Of a DNA stretch of 64,000 nt, positions 11,058 to 62,678 are shown one piece after another. Source of the DNA: Anaerolineae bacterium (GTDB lineage: Bacteria; Chloroflexota; Anaerolineae; Aggregatilineales; J027). The notes under the pieces were generated by a model. The model searched no databases, was not told where the DNA came from, and worked only from the letters and a program-made list of their open reading frames with translations. The number at the start of each line of letters is the position of its first letter. Within the stretch, counting starts at the first letter, position 1. The stretch lies in contig WBUL01000008.1 in assembly GCA_008933735.1 (NCBI GenBank), positions 124,001 to 188,000 of the forward strand, in the 5' to 3' direction. Made by a program: the position numbers and the translations under genes.

Positions 11058-11092
11058 ATTCTCCACGCGCAAATGCGCTCTTGGAGGCTGTA

Positions 11093-11863
11093 TTGCAATT
11101 AACAATCGTGCTGCCCACGTATAACGAGGCCGAAAACTTAGAAAAGATGGTGAGGGCGCTGCTCGCTCTTACGATCCCCTGTTCAGTTCTGGTGGTCGAT
11201 GACAACTCGCCCGATGGCACAGGTCAGATTGCCGACCGTCTTTGCGGCGAATTTCCGGGTCGGGTCAAGGTGCTGCACCGACAAGGGAAAGAAGGATTGG
11301 GGAAAGCATACCTCGCGGGATTCAGGCAGGCCATTGAAGACGGGGCAGAGTTAATTATCCAGATGGACTGCGATTTTTCGCATCAACCAAAGTATGTTCC
11401 TGAGATGGTGTCGGCTGCCGAAGATGCCGACATGGTGCTGGCCTCACGCTTTGCGCCCGGTGGTAAAGTGGATGAAACATGGGCATGGTGGCGCAAATTA
11501 TTGAGCTGGTTTGCCAACAGTGTGTATGTGCGTCTCATGCTGAACACTAATCTACGGGACTCAACAGGAGGTTTCCGGCTGTGGCGGCGCGAAACGTTGA
11601 TCGGGATGGATATTCAAAATCGGATTCATTCCAACGGCTATGTGTTCCAGGTGGAAATGGCCTACGTGGCCCTGAAACTCGGCTACAAGATCAAGGAAAT
11701 CCCAATTTACTTCCCTGACCGTGAACAAGGCGAATCCAAAATGAGTTTTTATATCCAGCGTGAGGCCGCCCTGCGCGTGCTGGAAGTTCGCCGCCGACAT
11801 GGACACCTGCGCCCAGAACACCGCGTCATTGAGACGCCTGCCATGGATCAAGTCAAAGCCTGA
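11093..11863 (+). CDS. Polyprenol-phosphate sugar synthase (GT2, DPM1-like)
   Basis: A 256-residue GT-A fold enzyme of the dolichol-phosphate mannosyltransferase type: it moves a hexose from a nucleotide sugar to polyprenyl phosphate on the inner face of the membrane. Visible motifs: TIVLPTYNEAENLEKMV at the N-terminus, VVDDNSPDGTG, the metal site QMDCDFSHQP, and SRFAPGG. There are no C-terminal membrane helices, so it resembles soluble DPM1 rather than CsbB or ArnC. The start is a TTG at 11093 with GGAGG five bases upstream; the ORF-track start at 11081 overlaps that binding site. Five bases separate its stop from the next gene, the YfhO-flippase fusion. That gene is the likely user of the sugar-lipid made here. 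Confidence 0.9.
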   Translation: MQLTIVLPTYNEAENLEKMVRALLALTIPCSVLVVDDNSPDGTGQIADRLCGEFPGRVKVLHRQGKEGLGKAYLAGFRQAIEDGAELIIQMDCDFSHQPKYVPEMVSAAEDADMVLASRFAPGGKVDETWAWWRKLLSWFANSVYVRLMLNTNLRDSTGGFRLWRRETLIGMDIQNRIHSNGYVFQVEMAYVALKLGYKIKEIPIYFPDREQGESKMSFYIQREAALRVLEVRRRHGHLRPEHRVIETPAMDQVKA

Positions 11864-11868
11864 TTTTC

Positions 11869-14800
11869 ATGAAAGTTCGCCGCCTGCTTCCAGACCTGCT
11901 GATCGCACTGGGTCTGCTGCTTCTGCCGCTGGCATTCTTTTTTCCGGTCACCCTGGGCGGCAAAACCCTGATTCCAGCGGACAACTTGTATCAGGTAGAG
12001 CCCTGGAGCAGTTACCGAGAGAGTCAGGGTGTACCAGAAATCCCACTTAACGGGCTGCTTTCTGACCTGATCTTACAGAATTACCAGTGGAAAACCTTTC
12101 TCAGGCAGAGCATTGACCAGCGGGAAATTCCTCTCTGGCAGCCGAATCAGTTTAGCGGCACACCATTTTTAGCGAATGGGCAGCATTCCGCGCTGTATCC
12201 CTTCAGCATCATTTATTATGTCATGCCGCTGGAAACCGCTTACGGTTGGTTCACCGTCAGCCAATTGTGGCTGGCAGGATTGTTCATGTATCTGTTTGTA
12301 CGCGGCCTGGGCCTAAGCCGCTTCGCAGGTATGGTTGCAGGGGTCGGGTACCAACTCAGCAGTTTTTTCATCGTTTCTACCGTGCATCCGATGATTCAGG
12401 CGGGGGCGGCGTGGCTGCCTCTCCTTCTGCTCATGCTGGAATTTATCATCCAGCGCCGCCCGTTTTTTGCTGGCCGCCAAAGCGGTTTCTCCACCTTACC
12501 CTGGGTGCTCATCGGTGGCATCGCCCTGGGAATGAGCTTTTTAGCGGGGCATGTCGAAATTACCTACTACACCCTGCTTATCATGGCAATGTATGCCCTG
12601 ATGCGCCTGATTGTTGAGACAAAGTGGAGATTCTCTTTTCCCTTAACACGTGGGGATGCAGGGGCAGCACCTTTTGCCCAACTTATTTTTATGCTCATCC
12701 TGTTGGTGCTGCTGGGGTTTGGACTGGGGGCAGTCCAGTTTATCCCCTTTGTTGAAACCGCCAGCGACAGCTTCCGAACCGAGCGATCCAGCCTGGAAGA
12801 GGTGCGGGATTATGCCCTGCCACTGCGGCATGTTGCCAAATGGCTGATACCCAATGTTTACGGCAATCCTGCCCACCATGAATATGTAGATATTTTTACC
12901 GATAAGCAAACACAGCACGATTGGATTCGGGTAGATGCCAATGGCAATGAGATCCGCGTCACGAATACTGATTTTGGGATCAAGAATTACGTGGAAGGCG
13001 GTGTTTACGTCAGCATCCTGATTCTGGTGTTGGCCTTCATTGGTTTATTCTTCAACCGGCAAGCCGGATTTTATCGCTGGGTATTTTTTATTTTAGGGCT
13101 TATCGCGGCGGCGTTCGCATTTGGCACCCCCTTGTACGCGGTCCTGTATTATTTATTCCCTGGTGTGAATCAGCTTCACACCCCATTCCGGTGGGCGTGG
13201 CTCATCACCTTCGTGCTGTGTATCTTTGCCGCTTACGGGGCAGATGTCCTGCTGAAAAACAGATCACGCTGGCTGACACGCGCCGGAATCGGGCTGGCGG
13301 TCGTTGGCCTGACCCTGATGCTGCTCATGGCATCCAGCCGCCAGTTTTATGACTCGATTGATTCTCCTGTGCAGCATCTCTACAATGGGCTGGCAAAAGC
13401 CAGCGAAGCCTTCCCCAATGCAAAAGCCTTCTACAGCTATGAAGCCAGCAATATTTACACTTTCGGCGTTATGGTTTTTACTGCCGGCTTGGTTCTCTGG
13501 CTCAGCCAGCGCAAATCGCCGGTCTGGCAGTTGGCCGCTATTCTGGTCATTGTGGTTGATTTGTATGCTGCCAGCGGTGATTTTAATACCCGTGCTGAGA
13601 AAACCTGGCTGAACTTCACCCCACCCGAAGTTGCCTTTTTACAACAGAAGAATCAGGAAAGCCTGGATTCCGCCAACGGCCCCATAAGAATTCAGGCGTT
13701 TAACTGGGGTGAGCGTCCGCTGGACGCTAATTCCGGATGGCGCTATGGATTACAGGATGTGCGTGGCTACGACAGCCTGTTCAGCAAACAGTATGCCGAT
13801 TACATGCGCCGGATCGCACCACAGGGGGAAGTTGATTTTAACCGCATCGCGCCGATCCTCTATGACAATCCGCAGGCCCTGCTGGATAGTCGTCTGAACG
13901 CGCTGAACGTCAGTTATATCATCACCGACTGGATCATCCGCCCTGAAGAAGAGTTTGGCGTAGAATCGCTGGAGGAAATTGGGCTGGAACAGGTCTATGA
14001 GAGTACGGGCACGCGGATTTATAAAAACAAAAATGCGCTGCCGCGTGCGTATAGTGTTGCAGGCGAAAAACCGGCCTTTGAGACCCTCGCTCCTGCGGAC
14101 TTCATTCCGGCAAAAATCACCCGCTACGAAAGTTCAACGGTTTTTGTCGATATAGAGGCCACCGAGGAGAGCTGGCTTATCCTCAGCGATACTTATGCCC
14201 CCGGCTGGCGGGCCTTTGTTCGTCCCCTGGGAGCCGATGAGGGCGAGGAAAAGGAAATTCATGTTGAGCGCGTGTTGGAAAACTTCCGAGGTGTCGCGCT
14301 TGAACCCGGTGCATGGACGGTGCGCTTCCGCTACAGCCCACAGAGTTTCCAACTGGGAGCATTCACCTCGTTTGTGAGCGGCATGGTGGTAATTTTTCTG
14401 GCGCTGTTGTGGCTGTGGACAACCTTCGTCAGAGAAAGTGCTGATTCGGACTCCGCCCGCCGTGTGATCAAAAACAGTCTGGCGCCGATTATCCTGAACC
14501 TCTTCAATCGGGGGATTGATTTTGCCTTCGCTTTTATCATGCTCCGCATTTTGGGGCCAGAAGGCGCGGGCATTTATTACTACGCGATTGTCATCTTTGG
14601 CTGGTTTGAAATCCTGACCAACTTTGGGTTGAATACGCTGCTCACCCGTGATGTTTCCCGCAACCGATCCCAGGCCCGGAACTATCTGCTCAATACGACC
14701 GCGCTGCGGCTGGCACTGGCCTTACTTGGCATTCCGGCGCTGGCGATCTTTCTGTTTATTCGTAATGCTGCGGTTTCCCCCACGCTGGATGAAACCGCGC

Positions 14801-15927
14801 TTGCGGCCATTGTGCTGCTGTATATTGGGCTGATCCCAAACAGCTTCAGCACCGGACTTACTGCCCTGTTTTATGCCTTTGAGAAAGCTGAATATCCCGC
14901 CGCGCTCACCACCGTCAGCACGCTGGCGAAAGTGTCATTAGGTCTGGGGGCGCTGCTGATGGGCTGGGGCGTGGTTGGCCTGGCTGGAGCGAGCATCCTC
15001 ACCAACGTTATGACGCTCGTAATGATGCTGTACCTCGCATGGCCGCTGATGCAGCCGGAAGTAGAAAAAGCGGTGTGGCACATCTCACCCGTTTTCATGC
15101 GCGGGATGGTTCATGAATCATGGCCGTTGATGCTCAACCATCTGCTGGCGACGATCTTCTTTAAGAGCGATGTCATTCTGATGGAAGCCATCAATGGGGT
15201 TGAAATCGTTGGTATCTACAGCACAGCGTACAAATGGCTTGACGCACTGAACATCATTCCCGCGTTTTTGACGATGGCGCTGCTGCCGCTCATGTCTCGG
15301 CAGGCGCATGAGGACAAAACCGCCCTGCGCCGCAACTACATCTTCGGCTTTAAGTCGCTTTACATGGTGGCGCTGCCCGTTGCCATCGTCACGACCTTCA
15401 TCGCGCCCGCTCTTATTGGTATTCTTGGTGGGGCGGAATTTTTGCCGGATGGTGGCATCGCGCTGCAAATTATGATCTGGTCCATTCTGGTCGGGTGGAT
15501 TAACAGCCTGACGCAGTATGTCTTAATTGCCCTTGACCGTCAGCGTTTGATTACATGGGCATTTATCGCTGCGGTGAGCTTCAACATCCTTGCCAATCTG
15601 ATCTTCCTGCCAGAGTACAGCTATCGTGCCGCCGCAGTGATTACGATTTTCAGTGAACTGGCACTGCTGGTCGGGTTTTATCGTCTGATTCGTGGCGATC
15701 TGGGCAGCATCAATTTTGTACAGGTCTTGTGGCGGCCTACGTTGGCGGGGGGGGCAATGCTCGGCGCGATAGTGCTCTGCTGGAATTTCAGTCCCCTCCT
15801 GGCGGTGCTGGCTTCTATCGTTGTTTATCCGGCAGTATTGATTATCTTCAAACCGCTCACTTCAGAAGAAGCCGAACGCCTGGGGCGGGTGATACCGGGT
15901 CGTTTGCGAAGTCGATTAGTTCGTTAG
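11869..15927 (+). CDS. YfhO-like GT-C glycosyltransferase fused to a MOP-superfamily flippase
   Basis: A 1352-residue two-part membrane protein. Residues 1 to about 850 match the YfhO type: an N-terminal helix, the extracytoplasmic loop with QPNQFSGTPFLANGQHSALYP, about 12 further helices, and an outer domain (about 570-825) ending with a last helix at about 828-848. A short charged linker (RESADSDSARR) leads to residues 860-1340, a complete Wzx/MATE-like flippase with NSLAPIILNLFNRGIDFAFA at its first helix and about 14 helices. YfhO in Firmicutes is the final transferase of three-part glycosylation systems, which also need a sugar-lipid synthase and a flippase. Here the synthase is the preceding gene and the flippase is fused on. 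No frameshift or stop is visible at the junction. Confidence 0.88.
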   Translation: MKVRRLLPDLLIALGLLLLPLAFFFPVTLGGKTLIPADNLYQVEPWSSYRESQGVPEIPLNGLLSDLILQNYQWKTFLRQSIDQREIPLWQPNQFSGTPFLANGQHSALYPFSIIYYVMPLETAYGWFTVSQLWLAGLFMYLFVRGLGLSRFAGMVAGVGYQLSSFFIVSTVHPMIQAGAAWLPLLLLMLEFIIQRRPFFAGRQSGFSTLPWVLIGGIALGMSFLAGHVEITYYTLLIMAMYALMRLIVETKWRFSFPLTRGDAGAAPFAQLIFMLILLVLLGFGLGAVQFIPFVETASDSFRTERSSLEEVRDYALPLRHVAKWLIPNVYGNPAHHEYVDIFTDKQTQHDWIRVDANGNEIRVTNTDFGIKNYVEGGVYVSILILVLAFIGLFFNRQAGFYRWVFFILGLIAAAFAFGTPLYAVLYYLFPGVNQLHTPFRWAWLITFVLCIFAAYGADVLLKNRSRWLTRAGIGLAVVGLTLMLLMASSRQFYDSIDSPVQHLYNGLAKASEAFPNAKAFYSYEASNIYTFGVMVFTAGLVLWLSQRKSPVWQLAAILVIVVDLYAASGDFNTRAEKTWLNFTPPEVAFLQQKNQESLDSANGPIRIQAFNWGERPLDANSGWRYGLQDVRGYDSLFSKQYADYMRRIAPQGEVDFNRIAPILYDNPQALLDSRLNALNVSYIITDWIIRPEEEFGVESLEEIGLEQVYESTGTRIYKNKNALPRAYSVAGEKPAFETLAPADFIPAKITRYESSTVFVDIEATEESWLILSDTYAPGWRAFVRPLGADEGEEKEIHVERVLENFRGVALEPGAWTVRFRYSPQSFQLGAFTSFVSGMVVIFLALLWLWTTFVRESADSDSARRVIKNSLAPIILNLFNRGIDFAFAFIMLRILGPEGAGIYYYAIVIFGWFEILTNFGLNTLLTRDVSRNRSQARNYLLNTTALRLALALLGIPALAIFLFIRNAAVSPTLDETALAAIVLLYIGLIPNSFSTGLTALFYAFEKAEYPAALTTVSTLAKVSLGLGALLMGWGVVGLAGASILTNVMTLVMMLYLAWPLMQPEVEKAVWHISPVFMRGMVHESWPLMLNHLLATIFFKSDVILMEAINGVEIVGIYSTAYKWLDALNIIPAFLTMALLPLMSRQAHEDKTALRRNYIFGFKSLYMVALPVAIVTTFIAPALIGILGGAEFLPDGGIALQIMIWSILVGWINSLTQYVLIALDRQRLITWAFIAAVSFNILANLIFLPEYSYRAAAVITIFSELALLVGFYRLIRGDLGSINFVQVLWRPTLAGGAMLGAIVLCWNFSPLLAVLASIVVYPAVLIIFKPLTSEEAERLGRVIPGRLRSRLVR

Positions 15928-54385: not shown

Positions 54386-55441
54386 TCAATTTTGAATTAA
54401 TCCGAGGATGCGGGCACGGGCGGCGGCCTGAGTCCGGCTGTGAACACTCATTTTATGATAGATGCTCTTCACATGGGTTTTGACGGTACCAGGAGATACA
54501 ATCAGAATTTGCGCGATGTCCTGGTTAGAATAACCCGCCGCCAGAAGCTGCAAAACCTCTAATTCCCGGTCTGTCAGAGAATCAGAGAGCGGTTGTGTCG
54601 ATATGGCGGGTGGGGTCGATAGGGTTCGGTTATTGAGGGCATCAAGCAGCTTATTGGCATACATCGCCGAAACCGGAGAGCGTGTCGTCAGCACACCCTT
54701 CAACAGATCAGTCAGGGGGGGGCCGGTATCCGTAAAAAGCCGGATAAATCCCTCCGATTCGGTCATTTCCAACACACGGCTTAGAATACTGACCGCCTGT
54801 GCGGTTTCCCCAAACACATGAAATGTTTCTGCCTGAAGGAGCATTAATTTAAGCTGGTATACCAAATGGTTGTTTTCTTCTGCCACCCCAAGCTGCGCGT
54901 CGAGCAAATCCAATACTTCCTCAGCCTCGCCGCGCACCAGCAGCATTTTAATATAAGTTAGAAATTCAATCGCCGAGGCATTTTTTAATTCGACAGTGTC
55001 AAACCAGTCAGTGCCGATGCTGTAATCATCCTGCCTCAGAGCTATCAGAACGCGAAACGCCGCACACTGAGTCTTTAAGTCAGGAGGAGCTAATTCCTCA
55101 GCTTTTTTCAGATGATCGAACGCGCCTGAAGGGTGTTGTCCGGCAATTTTTACCCACGCCAGGGCAAGCTGTGTCTCAATCCTGATGTCATCAGATGGAA
55201 AACTCAGAGCATCGTTTAGATAACGAGAGGCCAGTGTTAAATCATTCCATTCATAGGCGAGCTGACCTAATCCAAGATAAGCCAGACCGAGTCCGGGAGG
55301 GTCGCTACGATCAGGAACCAGTTTTAACGCCTGCTGGTAAGTCTGGTGAGCGAGAGTCAAACTACCCGCCGCGTAATATTCGCGGGCAAGACGGCAAATC
55401 GCCCACAGGCAGGTTTCCAGCCAGAATGAGTTTGAGATCAT
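54386..55441 (-). CDS. LuxR-family regulator with TPR-like repeats, lacking the MalT ATPase domain
   Basis: A 351-residue protein. The helical N-terminal part (1-265) is of TPR type (GLGLAYLGLGQLAYEWNDLT, LALAWVKIAGQHPSGAFDHL), as in the sensor half of MalT-type LAL regulators; the C-terminal HTH is LTDRELEVLQLLAAGYSNQD through KTHVKSIYHKMSVHSRTQAA (290-345). The Walker ATPase domain that comes first in MalT is absent. The codon just upstream of the ATG is a stop, and no ribosome binding site is visible, so either the N-terminus was lost or this is a naturally short regulator. Divergent from the GT-C-like gene, which it may control. Confidence 0.72.
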   Translation of the reverse strand: MISNSFWLETCLWAICRLAREYYAAGSLTLAHQTYQQALKLVPDRSDPPGLGLAYLGLGQLAYEWNDLTLASRYLNDALSFPSDDIRIETQLALAWVKIAGQHPSGAFDHLKKAEELAPPDLKTQCAAFRVLIALRQDDYSIGTDWFDTVELKNASAIEFLTYIKMLLVRGEAEEVLDLLDAQLGVAEENNHLVYQLKLMLLQAETFHVFGETAQAVSILSRVLEMTESEGFIRLFTDTGPPLTDLLKGVLTTRSPVSAMYANKLLDALNNRTLSTPPAISTQPLSDSLTDRELEVLQLLAAGYSNQDIAQILIVSPGTVKTHVKSIYHKMSVHSRTQAAARARILGLIQN

Positions 55442-55477: not shown

Positions 55478-55507
55478 TTGATAACCCCGGTGTTCAAGCT
55501 ATATAGT
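55478..55507 (+). promoter_or_regulatory. Promoter of the GT-C-like / GT2 unit
   Basis: TTGATA (55478-55483), 18-base spacer and TATAGT (55502-55507); both boxes match five of six consensus bases. Start near 55513 would leave the ATG at 55516 without a leader, supporting 55531 as the true start. Confidence 0.6.
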
Positions 55508-55530
55508 GGATTGTTATGAGGAAGGTCAGG

Positions 55531-57879
55531 ATGCAAAATGCGCTCCATCGGCATGGGGTTTCCTTGCTGATTTTGTTGATTATCGTCCTCTATGTGGCTG
55601 TCAATATAAAAAGTTTTTCCGGGAAACCGCTTATCCGATGGGGAGATACCGATGTTTATGACGAAATCTCTCAGGCAGGTTTTACCGATAGAGCCATGTG
55701 GGTCGGCCAGAAGCCACCAACCTTGCCCCTGGTCTACCGCTTCTTTAGAAATGACGATCAGCAGATAGCCAACTTTCAACTGGCTGTCTCGATGATTAGC
55801 TGGATTTTCTTTGGGCTTACCCTGACGCTCATTCTTGAAAATCGGCTGCTTAAAGTTCTGGCATTGCTGGCGGCGCTGGGCCTGAGTCTAAGCGTTAGTC
55901 TTTTTTTATGGCATACCATCATGCTCTCGGAAAGTCTGTCCAACTCGCTCATGGTGCTGGCAGTCGGTAGTTCCCTGCTCTCGATCTGGTATCTGAAAAA
56001 AAGACCTGACCTCAATTGGCGCTATCAGATACTACTGGCGTCTGGGCTGCTGCTGGTTTTCTTTCCCTGGGGATTTATCCGCGACCCCAACGGTTACTTT
56101 CTGCTTGGCTGTGCAGGTTTGATCGCCATCGGTCTTGCGGGAGCATGGTGGAAATGGCGTACCTTTCGCCCATATACTCCCTTTTTGATAACCGTCATAA
56201 TCGGTTTCATCGCAATGTTCTGGGGACTTAACCGCACGGCCTCAATCGTTGGGCGCTGGAAACCGAGTATTTACATCGTCACCGCTCAATTCATCCTGCC
56301 TGACCCTGAAAGCACTGCTTTTTTTGTGGATCATGGAATGCCTGAGCCTGACTCATTGCGTCAGTTTGAGGGACTCCTCCCCCCCTGGGAAAGTGCATGG
56401 CCCACCGCATACGATGAGTGGGTTAACAGCGGAAAAGCGAGACAGGTTTATCTGGAATATTTGCTCTGGAAAGCGCCAGAGAGTTTAATAACCCCCCTGA
56501 AACACTGGCGTCTAATCTATGCGCCAGATTTACAGGGTTGGGGAAAACACGAAATTCAGGCGGCTTTTCTTGAGAAGTTTTTTGACGAAAATGTCTACAC
56601 GCCTACCGGTTTTTGGCTCATCAGCCTTCTGTTCGTCACCATCCTACTTCTTAGCTACTTAATCTCACAGGCAGCTTATACCGAATACTGGCTTGTTCCC
56701 CTGATATTGCTCATCCTACTTTATCCGCTTACTTTTATGATCTGGTATTCCAGTGGGGGGCACACAGATCGCCATGCGCTCACTGTGAATCTCCAACTGC
56801 GATTGACCGTGCTGCTCTTTTTGTTTCTTAGCATGGATACCTTTTTGAAACTAAGATCGATGCAACGCGCATGGCGCTGGGCATCACCGCACCGGATACA
56901 AACGGTGCTGCTCACTGGAATTGTGCCTTTGATGATCCTGGAAGTTATTTTTCGATTACCGCTTACCCGTGATACGTTCATCTTACCTGCTGCAACCGCG
57001 CTCTCTTCTCAGCAAAATATTCTGAGTCCCTGGCATGTACATGACGTGGTGTATTTTGCTTACGAAGACAACCTAGAAAAATGGACAGGGGAAGATGCGG
57101 TGCTGGTCAGTTCGATGTCCACAGAGCCAGGACGTATGACGCTGCTGTATGCTGAAAAGTGGAGGGCAGTGCCGGATCGAGAGATTGACGACATAAACCT
57201 GGCACGTTACGTAAGACAGTGGCAGGAAACCGGATCACCTGAATTTTTGACAACCGCAAATATAGAATTCATGTTTCTGGAGCGCTCCTGGCTGGAGAAG
57301 CAGGAACCCTTCCAGAGACTTGCTCTGGAAAATCCGGCTTACTATGAATTATTGTACGAAAATGATGCTCGGCTTTTATATCGGGTGCAGGATGGCGTAA
57401 CGCCAACCACCTCGAACAGTGCGACGATGGGACTGTCAGAGGCAAATTATGAGGATTATCTCGCTTATCCATTTACCCTGGTGGAACCAGGCAGCGTTAT
57501 CTTCAGCCCGATGCGCGGCCTGGATTGGTTTGAAAACGCCTCAGATATTGGCAGGCTTGTTGAAGCGGCACAGTTACCGGGCGAACAACGTCATTTTTTC
57601 TATGATTTGATGCACCTCTGGGAGCAGCGCCTTACCCCCGACACCTTGAATCTAAACCCACAGAAAACTGCCATCTTTCAGGAATGGCAAGCGACTCGCT
57701 ATTCAAGTTATCTGGCTGAACTGGGCATCGATTATCTTTTGGTCAATGATCTGTGGATGTCATATCTGACAACCGATGAATATTATGTTTTTCAACTGTC
57801 CACGCATTATGAACTCGTCGCTGAATGGTCAGATAATCTTCCAGGCTTCTATCGGCTATACCGGGTCGTGTCAGGTTAG
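55531..57879 (+). CDS. GT-C-like polytopic membrane protein with outer domain
   Basis: A 782-residue protein with a signal-like first helix (VSLLILLIIVLYVAVNI), an outer loop containing GDTDVYDEIS, about 11 helices to residue 480, and then a soluble outer domain. The early acidic loop, the helix count and the outer domain fit the GT-C fold (PMT/YfhO type) that takes sugars from polyprenyl phosphates. The outer part contains two related segments, IEFMFLERSWLEK...ARLLYRV and IDYLLVNDLWMSY...FYRLYRV. Start: ATG 55531 with GAGGAAGG five bases upstream; ATG 55516 would overlap it. It lies upstream of a GT2 that makes such donors. No exact family name can be given. Confidence 0.7.
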   Translation: MQNALHRHGVSLLILLIIVLYVAVNIKSFSGKPLIRWGDTDVYDEISQAGFTDRAMWVGQKPPTLPLVYRFFRNDDQQIANFQLAVSMISWIFFGLTLTLILENRLLKVLALLAALGLSLSVSLFLWHTIMLSESLSNSLMVLAVGSSLLSIWYLKKRPDLNWRYQILLASGLLLVFFPWGFIRDPNGYFLLGCAGLIAIGLAGAWWKWRTFRPYTPFLITVIIGFIAMFWGLNRTASIVGRWKPSIYIVTAQFILPDPESTAFFVDHGMPEPDSLRQFEGLLPPWESAWPTAYDEWVNSGKARQVYLEYLLWKAPESLITPLKHWRLIYAPDLQGWGKHEIQAAFLEKFFDENVYTPTGFWLISLLFVTILLLSYLISQAAYTEYWLVPLILLILLYPLTFMIWYSSGGHTDRHALTVNLQLRLTVLLFLFLSMDTFLKLRSMQRAWRWASPHRIQTVLLTGIVPLMILEVIFRLPLTRDTFILPAATALSSQQNILSPWHVHDVVYFAYEDNLEKWTGEDAVLVSSMSTEPGRMTLLYAEKWRAVPDREIDDINLARYVRQWQETGSPEFLTTANIEFMFLERSWLEKQEPFQRLALENPAYYELLYENDARLLYRVQDGVTPTTSNSATMGLSEANYEDYLAYPFTLVEPGSVIFSPMRGLDWFENASDIGRLVEAAQLPGEQRHFFYDLMHLWEQRLTPDTLNLNPQKTAIFQEWQATRYSSYLAELGIDYLLVNDLWMSYLTTDEYYVFQLSTHYELVAEWSDNLPGFYRLYRVVSG

Positions 57880-57944
57880 TGTCTGGTATAACACTCAACT
57901 TCGTCGCTATACTCATGATCGCTTGTGATAGTTAAGGAGAATTT

Positions 57945-58817
57945 ATGCTGCCGGAAAATTTATCGGTCTCTGTCATTATCCCCGCTCACAATGAGGAAAA
58001 GGAAATCGGGGATATTGTGCGGCGGATTCTGGCAGTTCGGTCAGATTTTGAAGTGATCGTAATAAACGACGGTTCTCGTGATAACACCGCCAAAGCGGCA
58101 GAGGCGGCAGGTGCACGGGTCATTTCTCATCCGTATAATCTCGGTAATGGGGCGGCGGTCAAAACCGGGATTCGGGAAGCCAGAAATGACGTGATCCTGA
58201 TGATTGATGCCGACGGTCAGCACCCCCCGGAAAGCATTCCCCAACTAATTGACAAATTGGATCTGTACAAGATGGCTGTGGGATCACGAACCCCTAAATC
58301 CAAGGTATCACGCTTCCGCACGTTTGGGAATACATTTATGCGCTATTTCGCCATGTACCTGACTGATGCCTACATCGCGGATTTAACCTCCGGCTACCGG
58401 GCAGTGTACCGCGATGTAGCGCTGGAATTTATTCATCTGCTGCCGAACAAGTATTCCTATCCAACCACACTGACCATGTGTCTGCTGAAAGAAGGGTATC
58501 CGATTGCCTGGGTGCCGATGGATGAAATCAGCGGGCGGGGTTCTGGCGCCAGCGGGATTAAACCTTTGCGTGATGGGATACGGTTTTTATCCATCATGAT
58601 TCGGATTACGATGCTGTTCAGCCCGCAGCGTGTTTTTTTCCCGATTGGAGCGGCGGTGCTGGCACTGGGCATTTATATGTCCGTCCTCACCATCCGTCGC
58701 AGTATCCTTGAACCCAGCGCTGCAATGGTGGTAATGGTAGGTGTGTTTATTATTCTATTCGGGTTGGTTGCAGAACAACTGGCGGTGATTCGGCGCGAGT
58801 TGAATCGGCGCTGGTGA
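57945..58817 (+). CDS. Polyprenol-phosphate glycosyltransferase (GT2, with two C-terminal helices)
   Basis: A 290-residue GT-A enzyme: VSVIIPAHNEEKEIGDIVRR, VINDGSRDNT, the metal motif MIDADGQHPPESI and TSGYRAVYR. Two hydrophobic helices at the C-terminus (VFFPIGAAVLALGIYMSVLT and AAMVVMVGVFIILFGLVAEQ) place it with CsbB/GtrB/ArnC-like transferases that load a sugar on polyprenyl phosphate. AAGGAG lies upstream. Directly after its stop comes the AP-superfamily gene. Together with the GT-C-like gene before it, it forms a donor-and-transferase pair. Confidence 0.9.
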   Translation: MLPENLSVSVIIPAHNEEKEIGDIVRRILAVRSDFEVIVINDGSRDNTAKAAEAAGARVISHPYNLGNGAAVKTGIREARNDVILMIDADGQHPPESIPQLIDKLDLYKMAVGSRTPKSKVSRFRTFGNTFMRYFAMYLTDAYIADLTSGYRAVYRDVALEFIHLLPNKYSYPTTLTMCLLKEGYPIAWVPMDEISGRGSGASGIKPLRDGIRFLSIMIRITMLFSPQRVFFPIGAAVLALGIYMSVLTIRRSILEPSAAMVVMVGVFIILFGLVAEQLAVIRRELNRRW

Positions 58818-58832
58818 ATGGAGAAAACAACA

Positions 58833-60470
58833 ATGCGTGTCCTGGTCATTGCGCTGGATGGCGCAACCTTCGATATTTTGACCCCCTGGTTAGATCAACT
58901 GCCGACCCTCAAAAAGCTGCATGATGAAGGGGCAAAAGCCTCTCTGATGACCACCTTTCCGCCTATTACAGCGGCGGCATGGAATTCGTTTGCGACTGGC
59001 AAAAACCCCGCTAAACACGGCATTTTTGAATTTTTGCAGCGCCGGGAGGGCAGTTATGATGTTGAAACCATGACTGCCAATCATCGAAAAGCACGTACTC
59101 TATGGCGAATTCTGAGTGACGCGGGCAAAAATGTAATTGTTGTTAACGTACCTGTCACCTATCCTCCAGAGCCCGTCAATGGGTCGCTGGTCGCCGGAAT
59201 GCCCGTCCCAGCGAACCGGAGGGATTTTGCACATCCCCCGGAACTAACGCAGGAAATCATGCAGTGGTTTCCTGACTACAGCATCAACGCGACCAGCGTG
59301 TATATTCGTGGCAGAGCAGAGGATTTTCTGAACGACATTCGCCGTGAATTGAACCAGCGCTTAACGGTTGCTGAACGCCTCATGCAGCGGCAGGACTGGG
59401 ATTTTGCGATGATACACATCCTCGGTACCGACCGGATACAACACGAGTTCTGGCACTGCATGGATGAAAGCCATCCTAAACACACGGGGGAAGCACCCAG
59501 GTACAAAAATGCGATTCTGGAATATTATCAGGAGATTGACCGTAACCTGCACCGTCTTCTTGATCTTACGGACGAAAAGACCAGCGTATTTGTCATTTCA
59601 GATCACGGTTTTGGGCCGCTGCATCAATTTGTCTATCTCAACACCTGGCTGCTTGCCGAAGGTTTTCTTGTGCTGAAGAAAAATGGGCTGACACGGCTCA
59701 AATCACTGGCCTTCCGGCTTGGATTTTCACCAACCAATATCTATAAACTGGTGGCAATGCTGGGTCTAGGTGGTGTGCGCGGCGGGATGGACATGGGCAA
59801 ACGCCAGCAGCTATTGGATATGCTGTTCCTCTCGCTGCGCGATGTCGATTGGTCAAAAACAAAAGCCTATGCACGCGGCAATTTTGGGCAGATTTTTTTG
59901 AATGTTAAGGGCCGTGAACCGGAGGGCATCGTTGAGCCTGGCGTTGATTATGATAAAACGGTCTGGGAAATTATCAAACGCCTCCCCAATTTAAAAGACC
60001 CTCAAACGGGTCAGCCGCTGGTTGCACGGGCGGAAAAACGCGACGCCCTGTTCAATGGGGCTTATCTCAATCGTGCCCCCGATATTGCGGTTTTCATGAA
60101 GGAAGAAACGTATGTGCCGCTTGGCACTGCCGATTTTCCCGCCAACACAGTTGCGGAAGCCGCTGTTGGTAATACGGGCGACCACCGCTTTAATGGAATC
60201 CTCGTCATGAATGGCTACGGTATACAGCAGGCTGATCTGGGTGAAGCGAGTTTAATGGATGTAGCGCCGACGGTTCTGCATCTGCTGGGTGTTCCAGTGC
60301 CAAAAGACATGGATGGAAAAGTGCTTTTATCAGCCCTGACTCCCGATTTACACGCGGTACAATATATCGATGTTGTGGATGAATCACTACCTGCTGCCCG
60401 TTCACCCTACAGTGCTGAAGAAGAAGCCGAGATGACGCAGCATCTCGCAGACCTGGGATACTTAGGCTAA
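58833..60470 (+). CDS. Alkaline phosphatase-superfamily phosphodiesterase/nucleotide pyrophosphatase-like hydrolase
   Basis: A 545-residue metal-dependent hydrolase. First metal Asp in [10 protein letters not shown], nucleophile Thr in [20 protein letters not shown], second metal site in [13 protein letters not shown], and the last His in [14 protein letters not shown]; these are the ligand sets of the NPP/phosphopentomutase-like AP superfamily. No signal peptide, so it is cytoplasmic. ATG 58833 has GGAG 9 bases upstream, in the codons after the ATG at 58818; the earlier ATG is possible (550 residues). It lies in the GT2 unit and may cleave a nucleotide-sugar or phosphodiester in the same pathway. 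Substrate unknown. Confidence 0.85.
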
Positions 60471-60474
60471 AATT

Positions 60475-61512
60475 ATGATTGACTTAACTGAACGTCCGCA
60501 CCGCCGTTACAATCCTCTCACCAATGAATGGATTCTGGTCAGTCCGCATCGTGCCAAACGCCCCTGGCAGGGACAGGTCGAAACCATACCGGAAGAGGTT
60601 CGCCCTGAATATGACCCGACGTGTTACCTCTGCCCCGGCAACCCCCGTGCCGGCGGCAACCAGAATCCGCCGTATGAAGAAACCTTTGTTTTCAACAATG
60701 ACTTTCCTTCCTTGCTGCCCGATACGGAACCTGGCGTTGATGATACGAATCCATTGTTCCAATCTCAGGCTGAACGAGGAATCTGTCGCGTCATTTGTTT
60801 TTCGCCACGTCATGACTGGACTCTGGCCCACATGCCTGTACTGGATATTCAAAGAGTCGTGGATGCCTGGGCCAGAGAAACTCAGGAACTGGCGGCGAAC
60901 GCTCCCTGGATGCACTACGTACAGGTGTTTGAAAACAAAGGCGAGATGATGGGCTGCTCGAATCCGCACCCGCATGGACAAATCTGGGCGACCGAACGAC
61001 TGCCACGTGAAGTGGAAAAAGAGGAAGCCCCGCAGCGCAGCTATTTTGAAAAATACGGGCGAACGATGGTGGCGGATATTCTGGCGGAGGAGCAAAAGCG
61101 CCAGGAGCGCATCGTGTACGCTAATGAACACTGGACAATTCTAATTCCGTTCTGGGCAGTGTGGCCTTTTGAAACATTGATGATTTGCCACCGGCCGGTA
61201 CAGTGGCTGTATCAACTCAATGAGACTGAGCGACGCGCACTGGCAGATGCGGTTTCCGCCTTGACGATTCGCTACGACAACCTGTTTAAGATTTCTTTCC
61301 CGTACAGTATGGGGTTCCATCAAGCGCCGGTGAACAGCGGCGACCAACCACACTGGCATCTGCACGCTCATTACTATCCGCCGCTGCTGCGAAGCGCAAC
61401 GGTACGGAAACACATGGTCGGTTATGAAATGCTTGGGACACCGCAGCGCGATATTACAGCGGAAATCGCGGCAGCACGCCTGCGTGAACTGCCCGGTGTG
61501 AGATTTGCTTAG
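60475..61512 (+). CDS. galT: Galactose-1-phosphate uridylyltransferase
   Basis: A 345-residue HIT-superfamily enzyme that exchanges UMP between UDP-glucose and galactose-1-phosphate in the Leloir pathway. Zinc cysteines CYLCPGN near residue 46, substrate region VFNNDFPSL, active-site HPH in [14 protein letters not shown] (about residue 162-166), and the C-terminal motif [18 protein letters not shown] with further metal His. Four bases from the upstream hydrolase and 11 bases before galK: one transcript is likely. No galE or galM in the window. Confidence 0.95.
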
Positions 61513-61523
61513 AAAGATAACCC

Positions 61524-62678
61524 ATGATACAAGAAAAAGTCATTGAAACTTACCGGAAAATCTTCGGCGAACAGCCGCAGTTTCTTGTCCGTGCACCGGG
61601 CCGGGCTAATCTGATTGGCGAGCATACCGATTACCATGATGGTTTTGTCATGCCGCTGGCAGTTGACCGGGCGGTTTGGCTGGCAATAGCGCCGCGCAGT
61701 GATAACCACATCAGTGTACACACCCTCGATTTTGGAAATGAGATGATCTCTTTTGGGCTTGACCAGCTCCAGGACAGCAGCCTGCCGCACTGGACAAAGC
61801 ATGTACGTGGGGCATGGTGGCTAGTGGCACATCAGGAAGGCAAACAGGCTCCCGGAGTGAATATCGTTATCGGCAGCGATATTCCGATGGGGTCGGGTAT
61901 GTCATCTTCAGCCGCGATTGAGGTTGCGATGATCGAAGCGGCGCTGGCTTTGCTGGGGGAAACTTCATCCTACACGCAGGCGCAAAAAGCGCTGTTAGCG
62001 GTAGAAATTGAGCATCAATTTATGGGAATGCCATGTGGTATTCTCGACCAGATGGCTTCCGCCGCCGCGCTGGAAGGAACAGCCATGCTGCTGGACTGCC
62101 GCAGCTTTGACCGCACCCCTGCCCCAATACCGGATTCGGTGCGTGTCGTGGTCATGAACACTATGAAAAGCCGCGAGTTGGGAGATTCGGGATATGCGAC
62201 CCGCCGGCGTGAAAGCGAATCTGCTGCACAACTCCTGGGGGTTAAAGCCCTCCGTGATGCGACCATGGACATGATTGACGCCAAACGCACAGAGCTAGGG
62301 GATGTTCGCTATCGGCGTGCCAAGCATGTCGTTACGGAAAACGAGCGCACCCTCCAGATGAAAGCCATTCTGGAAAGCCATGACCTGCAAGGAGCAGGTA
62401 AACTCCTCAACGCCAGCCACATCAGCTTACGGGACGATTACGAGGTCTCGGTTTATGAGCTGGATGTGATGAGCGAAATCGCTCAATCACATCCGGCTTG
62501 TTATGGAGCACGCATGATGGGCGGCGGGTTTGGCGGCTGCGCGGTCGGGTTAGTTAACGCAGATGCGATTGATGATTTTCTCAACGCGCTTCAGCCGCGC
62601 TATACCGAAAAAACAGGTAAACACCCGGAATTTTATGTGTGTGTTCCCGCTGCCGGAAGCGGTGTAACCCGTCTGTAA
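61524..62678 (+). CDS. galK: Galactokinase
   Basis: A 384-residue GHMP kinase that phosphorylates galactose at C1 with ATP. Galactokinase signature PGRANLIGEHTDYHDGFVMP at residue 25, the GHMP ATP-loop DIPMGSGMSSSAAIE (about 118), and motif 3 MMGGGFGGCAVGLVN near 333. Length is standard. With galT it feeds galactose into UDP-galactose, a likely donor for the glycan genes nearby. It converges on the PhnE-like gene 16 bases downstream. Confidence 0.96.
   Translation: MIQEKVIETYRKIFGEQPQFLVRAPGRANLIGEHTDYHDGFVMPLAVDRAVWLAIAPRSDNHISVHTLDFGNEMISFGLDQLQDSSLPHWTKHVRGAWWLVAHQEGKQAPGVNIVIGSDIPMGSGMSSSAAIEVAMIEAALALLGETSSYTQAQKALLAVEIEHQFMGMPCGILDQMASAAALEGTAMLLDCRSFDRTPAPIPDSVRVVVMNTMKSRELGDSGYATRRRESESAAQLLGVKALRDATMDMIDAKRTELGDVRYRRAKHVVTENERTLQMKAILESHDLQGAGKLLNASHISLRDDYEVSVYELDVMSEIAQSHPACYGARMMGGGFGGCAVGLVNADAIDDFLNALQPRYTEKTGKHPEFYVCVPAAGSGVTRL

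Follow-up and report, generated by a model that had tools for sequence, protein, structure and literature searches.

A three-gene set on the forward strand, at positions 55,531–60,470, was analysed within a 64,000-nucleotide stretch of an Anaerolineae bacterium genome (contig WBUL01000008.1, positions 124,001 to 188,000; hereafter the window, whose own numbering is used below). The original prediction had placed here a second sugar-lipid pathway consisting of a membrane protein with a fold like that of glycosyltransferase superfamily C (GT-C), a family 2 glycosyltransferase (GT2), and, as an unusual third partner, a cytoplasmic hydrolase of the alkaline phosphatase (AP) superfamily. All three open reading frames (ORFs) were confirmed at these positions in the ORF list, and we consider it reasonably probable that the locus is a cassette for multi-component transmembrane glycosylation that includes a phosphoesterase as an additional component. 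The general kind of system is already known; this one has an unrecognised GT-C family, a duplicated mobile outer module, and a recurrent AP component. The features of the set are as follows.

55531..57879, + strand: gene 1, predicted GT-C-fold membrane glycosyltransferase, 782 amino acids (aa) (ORF list; AlphaFold model)
55531..56850, + strand: membrane domain of gene 1, residues 1–440, a GT-C family not in Pfam (alignment of relatives; conserved residues)
57121..57429, + strand: outer module A of gene 1, about residues 531–633, first copy (profile-profile comparison; AlphaFold model)
57430..57876, + strand: outer module B of gene 1, residues 634–782, second copy, mobile (profile searches; other host proteins)
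57945..58817, + strand: gene 2, predicted GT2 polyprenyl-phosphate-sugar synthase of the dolichol-phosphate-mannose synthase (DPM)/GtrB/ArnC type, 290 aa (PF00535; PDB profile matches)
58818..60470, + strand: gene 3, predicted cytoplasmic AP-superfamily phosphoesterase (PF01663) resembling nucleotide pyrophosphatases/phosphodiesterases (NPPs), 550 aa (Pfam; conserved residues)

Gene 3 matched PF01663 with an E-value (E) of 7.7e-42, and D14, D205, H209, D262, H263, and H456 were invariant, and T51 nearly so, among 20 AP sequences. These conserved residues are the metal ligands and the nucleophile of the NPP branch; D14, T51, and D262-H263 align with phosphonoacetate hydrolase (PhnA) and NPP1, the T51 column being Ala in two mutant PDB entries. 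By profile, the closest solved relatives were likewise nucleotide pyrophosphatases/phosphodiesterases and phosphonoacetate hydrolase. Gene 3 differs from this branch in its predicted cytoplasmic location, its length (550 aa), a long insert that lies between residues 270 and 430, and its conserved C-terminal LGYLG end. Further, the NPP-type asparagine at position T+21 is replaced by Phe72 (family consensus HGLxDF vs HGIIDN), suggesting that substrate handling differs from that of the NPPs. Proteins of the family have no signal peptide and begin right at the first beta strand, from which a cytoplasmic location is predicted, as had been proposed. No description of this AP family in glycan clusters, or as a partner of this kind, was found in the open-licence literature. 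At two other loci (L163, 1518–4802, and L270, 1263–4547), a single open frame of 1095 aa carries two tandem AP domains.

Gene 2 matched PF00535 at 3.5e-32. Its best NCBIfam relatives were AglJ and polyprenyl-phosphate-sugar synthases, all below the cut-offs, the closest solved structures were those of ArnC, dolichol-phosphate-mannose synthase, and GtrB sll0501, and two hydrophobic segments were observed at its C-terminus. Gene 2 is accordingly predicted to be a synthase of the DPM/GtrB/ArnC type.

Relatives of gene 3 were found in 214 of 396 genomes of the class, and a scan of named genomes recovered members of the family from Chloroflexota, Planctomycetota, Elusimicrobia, Omnitrophota, Desulfobacteraceae, and others. 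A gene 2 relative was present at 15/20 class AP loci vs 2/40 same-genome control regions (Fisher p 3e-8), and PMT_2/TMEM260 GT-C genes were present at 11/20 vs 2/40 (p 3e-5); these counts leave out the seeds' own loci, and part of the control regions did not reach the length of the case loci. When 127 AP proteins were placed on a tree, linkage to GT2 had to change state 15 times, and well-supported branches made at least 11 of these changes unavoidable. GT-C > GT2 > AP, in exactly this order, was observed at two loci (L089 and L090), with the variants TMEM260 > methyltransferase > GT2 > radical SAM > AP and GT2 > PMT_2 > AP elsewhere, and overlapping stop and start codons were seen at AP gene junctions. 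In contrast, no AP gene was found at any of the 17 loci fetched around relatives of the gene 1 GT-C domain and of its module. The slot beside the AP gene is conserved, while the GT-C family that fills it varies; conserved linkage of the three-gene set, as originally envisaged, was therefore borne out for the AP gene with GT2 and with other GT-C families, and not for the GT-C family of gene 1 itself. A second AP gene of this genome (locus L279, 8346–13620, contig C19) has a D-glucuronyl C5-epimerase-like gene on one side and a PMT_2 GT-C gene on the other, the latter of which it overlaps by 4 nt. A recurrent cluster of a TMEM260-like GT-C, a methyltransferase, a DPM-type GT2, a radical SAM/SPASM protein, and an AP protein was also noted (L091, L094, L096, and L105).

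At several loci, a DUF2304 gene lies between the GT2 and AP genes, and in five genera (L107, L273, L275, L276, and L277) DUF2304 and AP form a single ORF directly downstream of a DPM-type GT2 gene. GacJ, a member of the DUF2304 family, associates with GacI in a complex and increases the polyprenyl-phosphate-N-acetylglucosamine synthase activity of GacI (PMC8327497; PMC10821137). The GacI/GacJ (WpsA/WpsB) system and the loci studied here have in common a GT2 making a polyprenyl-phosphate-sugar, and the AP homologues stand beside, or are fused to, the DUF2304 subunit; however, the GT2 of the window comes with C-terminal membrane segments of its own and without a DUF2304 gene, and an AP partner is not described for GacIJ loci in the two papers cited. 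These fusions are the strongest evidence for the AP protein working with the synthase, and, together with the recurrent GT2 linkage, they suggested that it is probably a dedicated cytoplasmic component of the synthase step, in keeping with its proposed place as third partner. Apparent AP-GT2 fusions in long open frames at three loci (L269, L271, and L272) were rejected, since the GT2/AglD homology belongs to a different frame or to a distinct gene that overlaps.

At E 0.05, gene 1 matched nothing in Pfam or NCBIfam, a sequence search with the membrane protein found no relatives in the named genomes, and a profile of the GT-C alignment found nothing at E 1 among PDB sequences, so that only the structure model placed it. 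The best 20 PDB structure matches of the AlphaFold model (mean predicted local distance difference test (pLDDT) 78.8; predicted template-modelling score (pTM) 0.63) were all GT-C enzymes, with a best E of 1.1e-4 and a probability of 1.00, and included STT3/OST, AglB, PglB, DPY19, Pmt4, and ArnT. The template-modelling scores were low, at about 0.2–0.3 by query length; the model thus supports the predicted membership of gene 1 in the GT-C superfamily, with no subfamily assignable. An acidic motif in the first outer loop, a GT-C trait, was found in all 13 relatives as D39 (in GDTDVY) together with E or D at position 134, and W91, W127, G269-M270-P271, R414, and H415 were also invariant in 13/13. 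Relatives of the membrane part found by the class-wide search were stand-alone proteins of ~450–650 aa, most of them from a single family of the class; the genome of the window also has one full-length paralogue. This membrane domain is a new GT-C family, not yet in Pfam. The paralogue (locus L009, 4796–9943, contig C34) lies directly downstream of a DegT aminotransferase gene and near genes for a GFO/IDH oxidoreductase and an NAD-dependent epimerase, that is, in a sugar-building cluster.

The genes immediately downstream, and the promoter candidate upstream, are the following.

55478..55507, + strand: sigma-70-like promoter candidate TTGATA-18-TATAGT (10 of 12 consensus matches)
60475..61512, + strand: galT, galactose-1-phosphate uridylyltransferase (ORF list; Pfam/NCBIfam)
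61524..62678, + strand: galK-like galactokinase (motifs GRANLIGEHTDY and PMGSGMSSSAA, read by eye)

Gene 3 and galT are separated by 4 nt, and galT and galK by 11 nt. No convincing + strand terminator was found between the genes from gene 1 through galK, and together with this close spacing the result suggested that the transcription unit probably comprises five genes, galT and galK included. The statement that three genes follow one strong promoter thus held in that a promoter-like site is present, and not in its strength or, probably, in the number of genes: 11 promoter-like sites were observed in the region vs 7.7 ± 2.8 in shuffles, and TTGATA-18-TATAGT is a weak candidate, a consensus match only and by itself not above the shuffled background. 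ATG 55531 is the likelier start of gene 1, because a purine-rich AGGAAGG precedes it; an alternative in-frame ATG at 55516 (787 aa) would be nearly leaderless. Upstream of gene 1, a divergent LuxR-type regulator (54386–55441) was noted, with a MalT-like tetratricopeptide-repeat region and without the N-terminal ATPase domain. galT and galK were rejected as conserved partners of the set, since no other locus had both and a single one had galK alone.

A GT-A and a GT-C are encoded together here, a trait of the multi-component transmembrane glycosylation systems represented by CsbB-GtcA-YfhO and GtlA-GtcA-GtlB (reviewed in PMC8035078). As in those systems, a GT-A predicted to charge undecaprenyl phosphate is adjacent to a GT-C gene, and a separate GtrA flippase may be encoded elsewhere; the window differs from them in that its GT-C, from a family with no model in Pfam, bears the outer module in two copies, and in that the GT2 gene is followed by one for a cytoplasmic AP-superfamily phosphoesterase. 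In the mechanism that we propose, gene 2 would charge polyprenyl phosphate with a hexose from a UDP-sugar at the inner membrane face, the adjacency of galT and galK suggesting UDP-galactose or UDP-glucose as the donor. A flippase encoded elsewhere, possibly a single GtrA-type protein, would turn the lipid-sugar over; no flippase gene is present in the operon, and one GtrA-type gene lies elsewhere in the genome (C5:243248). Gene 1, going by its modelled fold, may then transfer the sugar to an extracytoplasmic acceptor, its outer modules probably binding the acceptor or a partner, while gene 3 would serve as a dedicated cytoplasmic zinc-type phosphoesterase partner at the synthase step.

As to what the AP enzyme does there, our tentative first choice, made by analogy and placed before removal of UDP or UDP-sugar, is that it hydrolyses unused lipid-linked sugar and so frees the polyprenyl phosphate carrier. 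P-O cleavage would in that case release free galactose, which could be re-used by GalK and GalT. The analogy is with UshA (YqjL) of Bacillus subtilis, recently proposed as a putative cytoplasmic hydrolase of undecaprenyl-phosphate-sugars (PMC11898649), which likewise would free undecaprenyl phosphate from the linked sugars. The presumed parallel is one of function, as UshA belongs to the alpha/beta hydrolases and is controlled by SigM, whereas gene 3 is predicted to be an AP-superfamily metalloenzyme in a synthase operon. More speculatively still, the AP family may be an unrecognised subunit dedicated to polyprenyl-phosphate-sugar synthases (GT2 alone or together with DUF2304) in Chloroflexota and other phyla, which edits or recycles the lipid-linked sugar before flipping. 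If true, the AP subunit would be a built-in carrier-lipid salvage step inside bacterial glycosylation cassettes, and carrier-lipid use is a bottleneck common to all surface-glycan pathways. The linkage and the five DUF2304 fusions provide a specific and testable functional hypothesis for an AP-superfamily group present in more than half of the class genomes searched.

Several observations weigh against the proposed cassette and the place of the AP enzyme in it. Phe72 stands in place of the active-site asparagine of the NPPs. In the broader, cross-phylum named set, the GT2 excess holds but is weaker (21/79, p 0.003), and that of GT-C genes falls short of significance (13/79, p 0.06). Many AP relatives occur in polysaccharide clusters with Wzx, GT4, and other GT2s and without a DPM-type GT2, suggesting that the AP substrate may be broader, and the galT/galK adjacency was not seen at other loci.

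A second, less likely activity for the AP enzyme is hydrolysis of cytoplasmic UDP or UDP-sugar, which would drive the reversible synthase reaction towards product by taking away UDP, or else control how much donor is available. The nucleotide-cleaving enzymes among its closest solved relatives, along with phosphonoacetate hydrolase, are consistent with such an activity, and both the linkage and the DUF2304 fusion put the AP protein at the synthase, the site of UDP formation. An enzyme of this kind would have no need to be localised on the lipid side, yet five genera have the AP protein joined to a membrane subunit, and the change of the NPP asparagine to Phe72 argues against a nucleotide substrate as well. 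Third after these two activities we ranked the quite improbable one in which the AP enzyme takes the phosphate off a phosphosugar linked to the lipid, or adds a modification that contains phosphate. A dedicated phosphatase is established in three-component pentofuranose systems (HAD-type PRP domain, Rv3807c; PMC11127046), and AP neighbourhoods are rich in sugar-modifying genes; here, however, the donor-charging enzyme is a DPM-type GT2 using nucleotide sugars and not a phosphoribosyltransferase, and the cassette contains no enzyme transferring a phosphosugar. Least probable of all is that the AP gene is a mere passenger of glycan clusters, acting in another pathway while the GT2 and GT-C pair works alone: it would fit the absence of AP genes from the 17 loci around relatives of the gene 1 GT-C domain and module and the many AP relatives without a DPM-type GT2 within two genes, but not the GT2 and GT-C enrichment over same-genome control regions, an association that arose independently at least 11 times on the tree of AP proteins, or the overlapping stop and start codons and the five DUF2304 fusions.

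The outer domain of gene 1 had been described as containing two related segments, and this was confirmed: modules A and B matched each other in profile-profile comparison with a probability of 97.6% and a pairwise E of 4e-12. In an independent search, the module B profile also picked up the preceding copy, both within gene 1 (E 3.9e-5) and within two paralogues (2.6e-6 and 1.1e-4), and in the model both modules showed the order helix-helix-strand-helix-helix-strand-strand. Modules A and B are a tandem duplication. Module B forms the C-terminus of four proteins of this genome whose N-terminal parts differ, and it occurs in a short ORF of another genome (G008). In a third genome (G009; locus L013, 4175–5737), it ends a 520 aa protein that has no Pfam match and by eye resembles SGNH proteins; the gene for this protein comes immediately after one for an MBOAT acyltransferase. 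Module B is thus mobile across otherwise different proteins; it was found in none of the 297 other class genomes searched and therefore looks lineage-specific. Neither the gene 1 GT-C family nor this mobile duplicated module has a Pfam model, and models of them would aid the annotation of surface-glycan genes in the lineage.

The outer domain had also been compared with that of a YfhO protein belonging to the first sugar-lipid system of the window (11081–15927), in which a similar pattern was indeed present:

about 13870..14028, + strand: YfhO outer-domain element, pattern VSYIITD ... TRIYKN (translated sequence; core comparison; model)

The bare pattern was uninformative; as a regular expression it matched 3/28 GT-C proteins and 11/143 unrelated proteins of >500 aa (about 8%), and it was rejected as evidence of kinship. 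The profile-profile check gave a divided result, in that comparison of the whole domains was not significant (probability 2–5%), whereas a core-only comparison reached a probability of 45% and a pairwise E of 2.2e-4, the YfhO core being the best of 42 windows and in the register originally pointed out. The AlphaFold model of the YfhO outer domain showed the same order of helices and strands as the gene 1 modules, and a PDB search with this domain found nothing at E 0.001. A common origin of the small outer element is plausible, and the core comparison and the element order are suggestive of a shared origin of the two outer domains.

A larger claim, that both systems descend from one ancestral GT2 and GT-C pair, outer domains included, appears unlikely to us. 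Besides the in-register core match and the common element order, it would account for the kinship of gene 2 with the GT2 of the first system (~25% identity, E 2e-18); but all GT2s of this type are related, so that their kinship says little, and the whole-domain comparison failed. Further, the protein at 11869–15927 matches YfhO (PF09586) at 3.3e-25, whereas the gene 1 membrane domain has no YfhO match, and the YfhO half is accompanied by a beta-sandwich and a flippase fusion, neither of which is present in gene 1.

The fusion protein itself (1352 aa) joins the YfhO half to a Wzx/MATE flippase half and is encoded downstream of a DPM-type GT2. Of 120 class genomes, 100 contained the YfhO outer domain, which almost always sat in an open frame of ~1300–1500 aa, and the YfhO-flippase fusion looks near-universal in the class.

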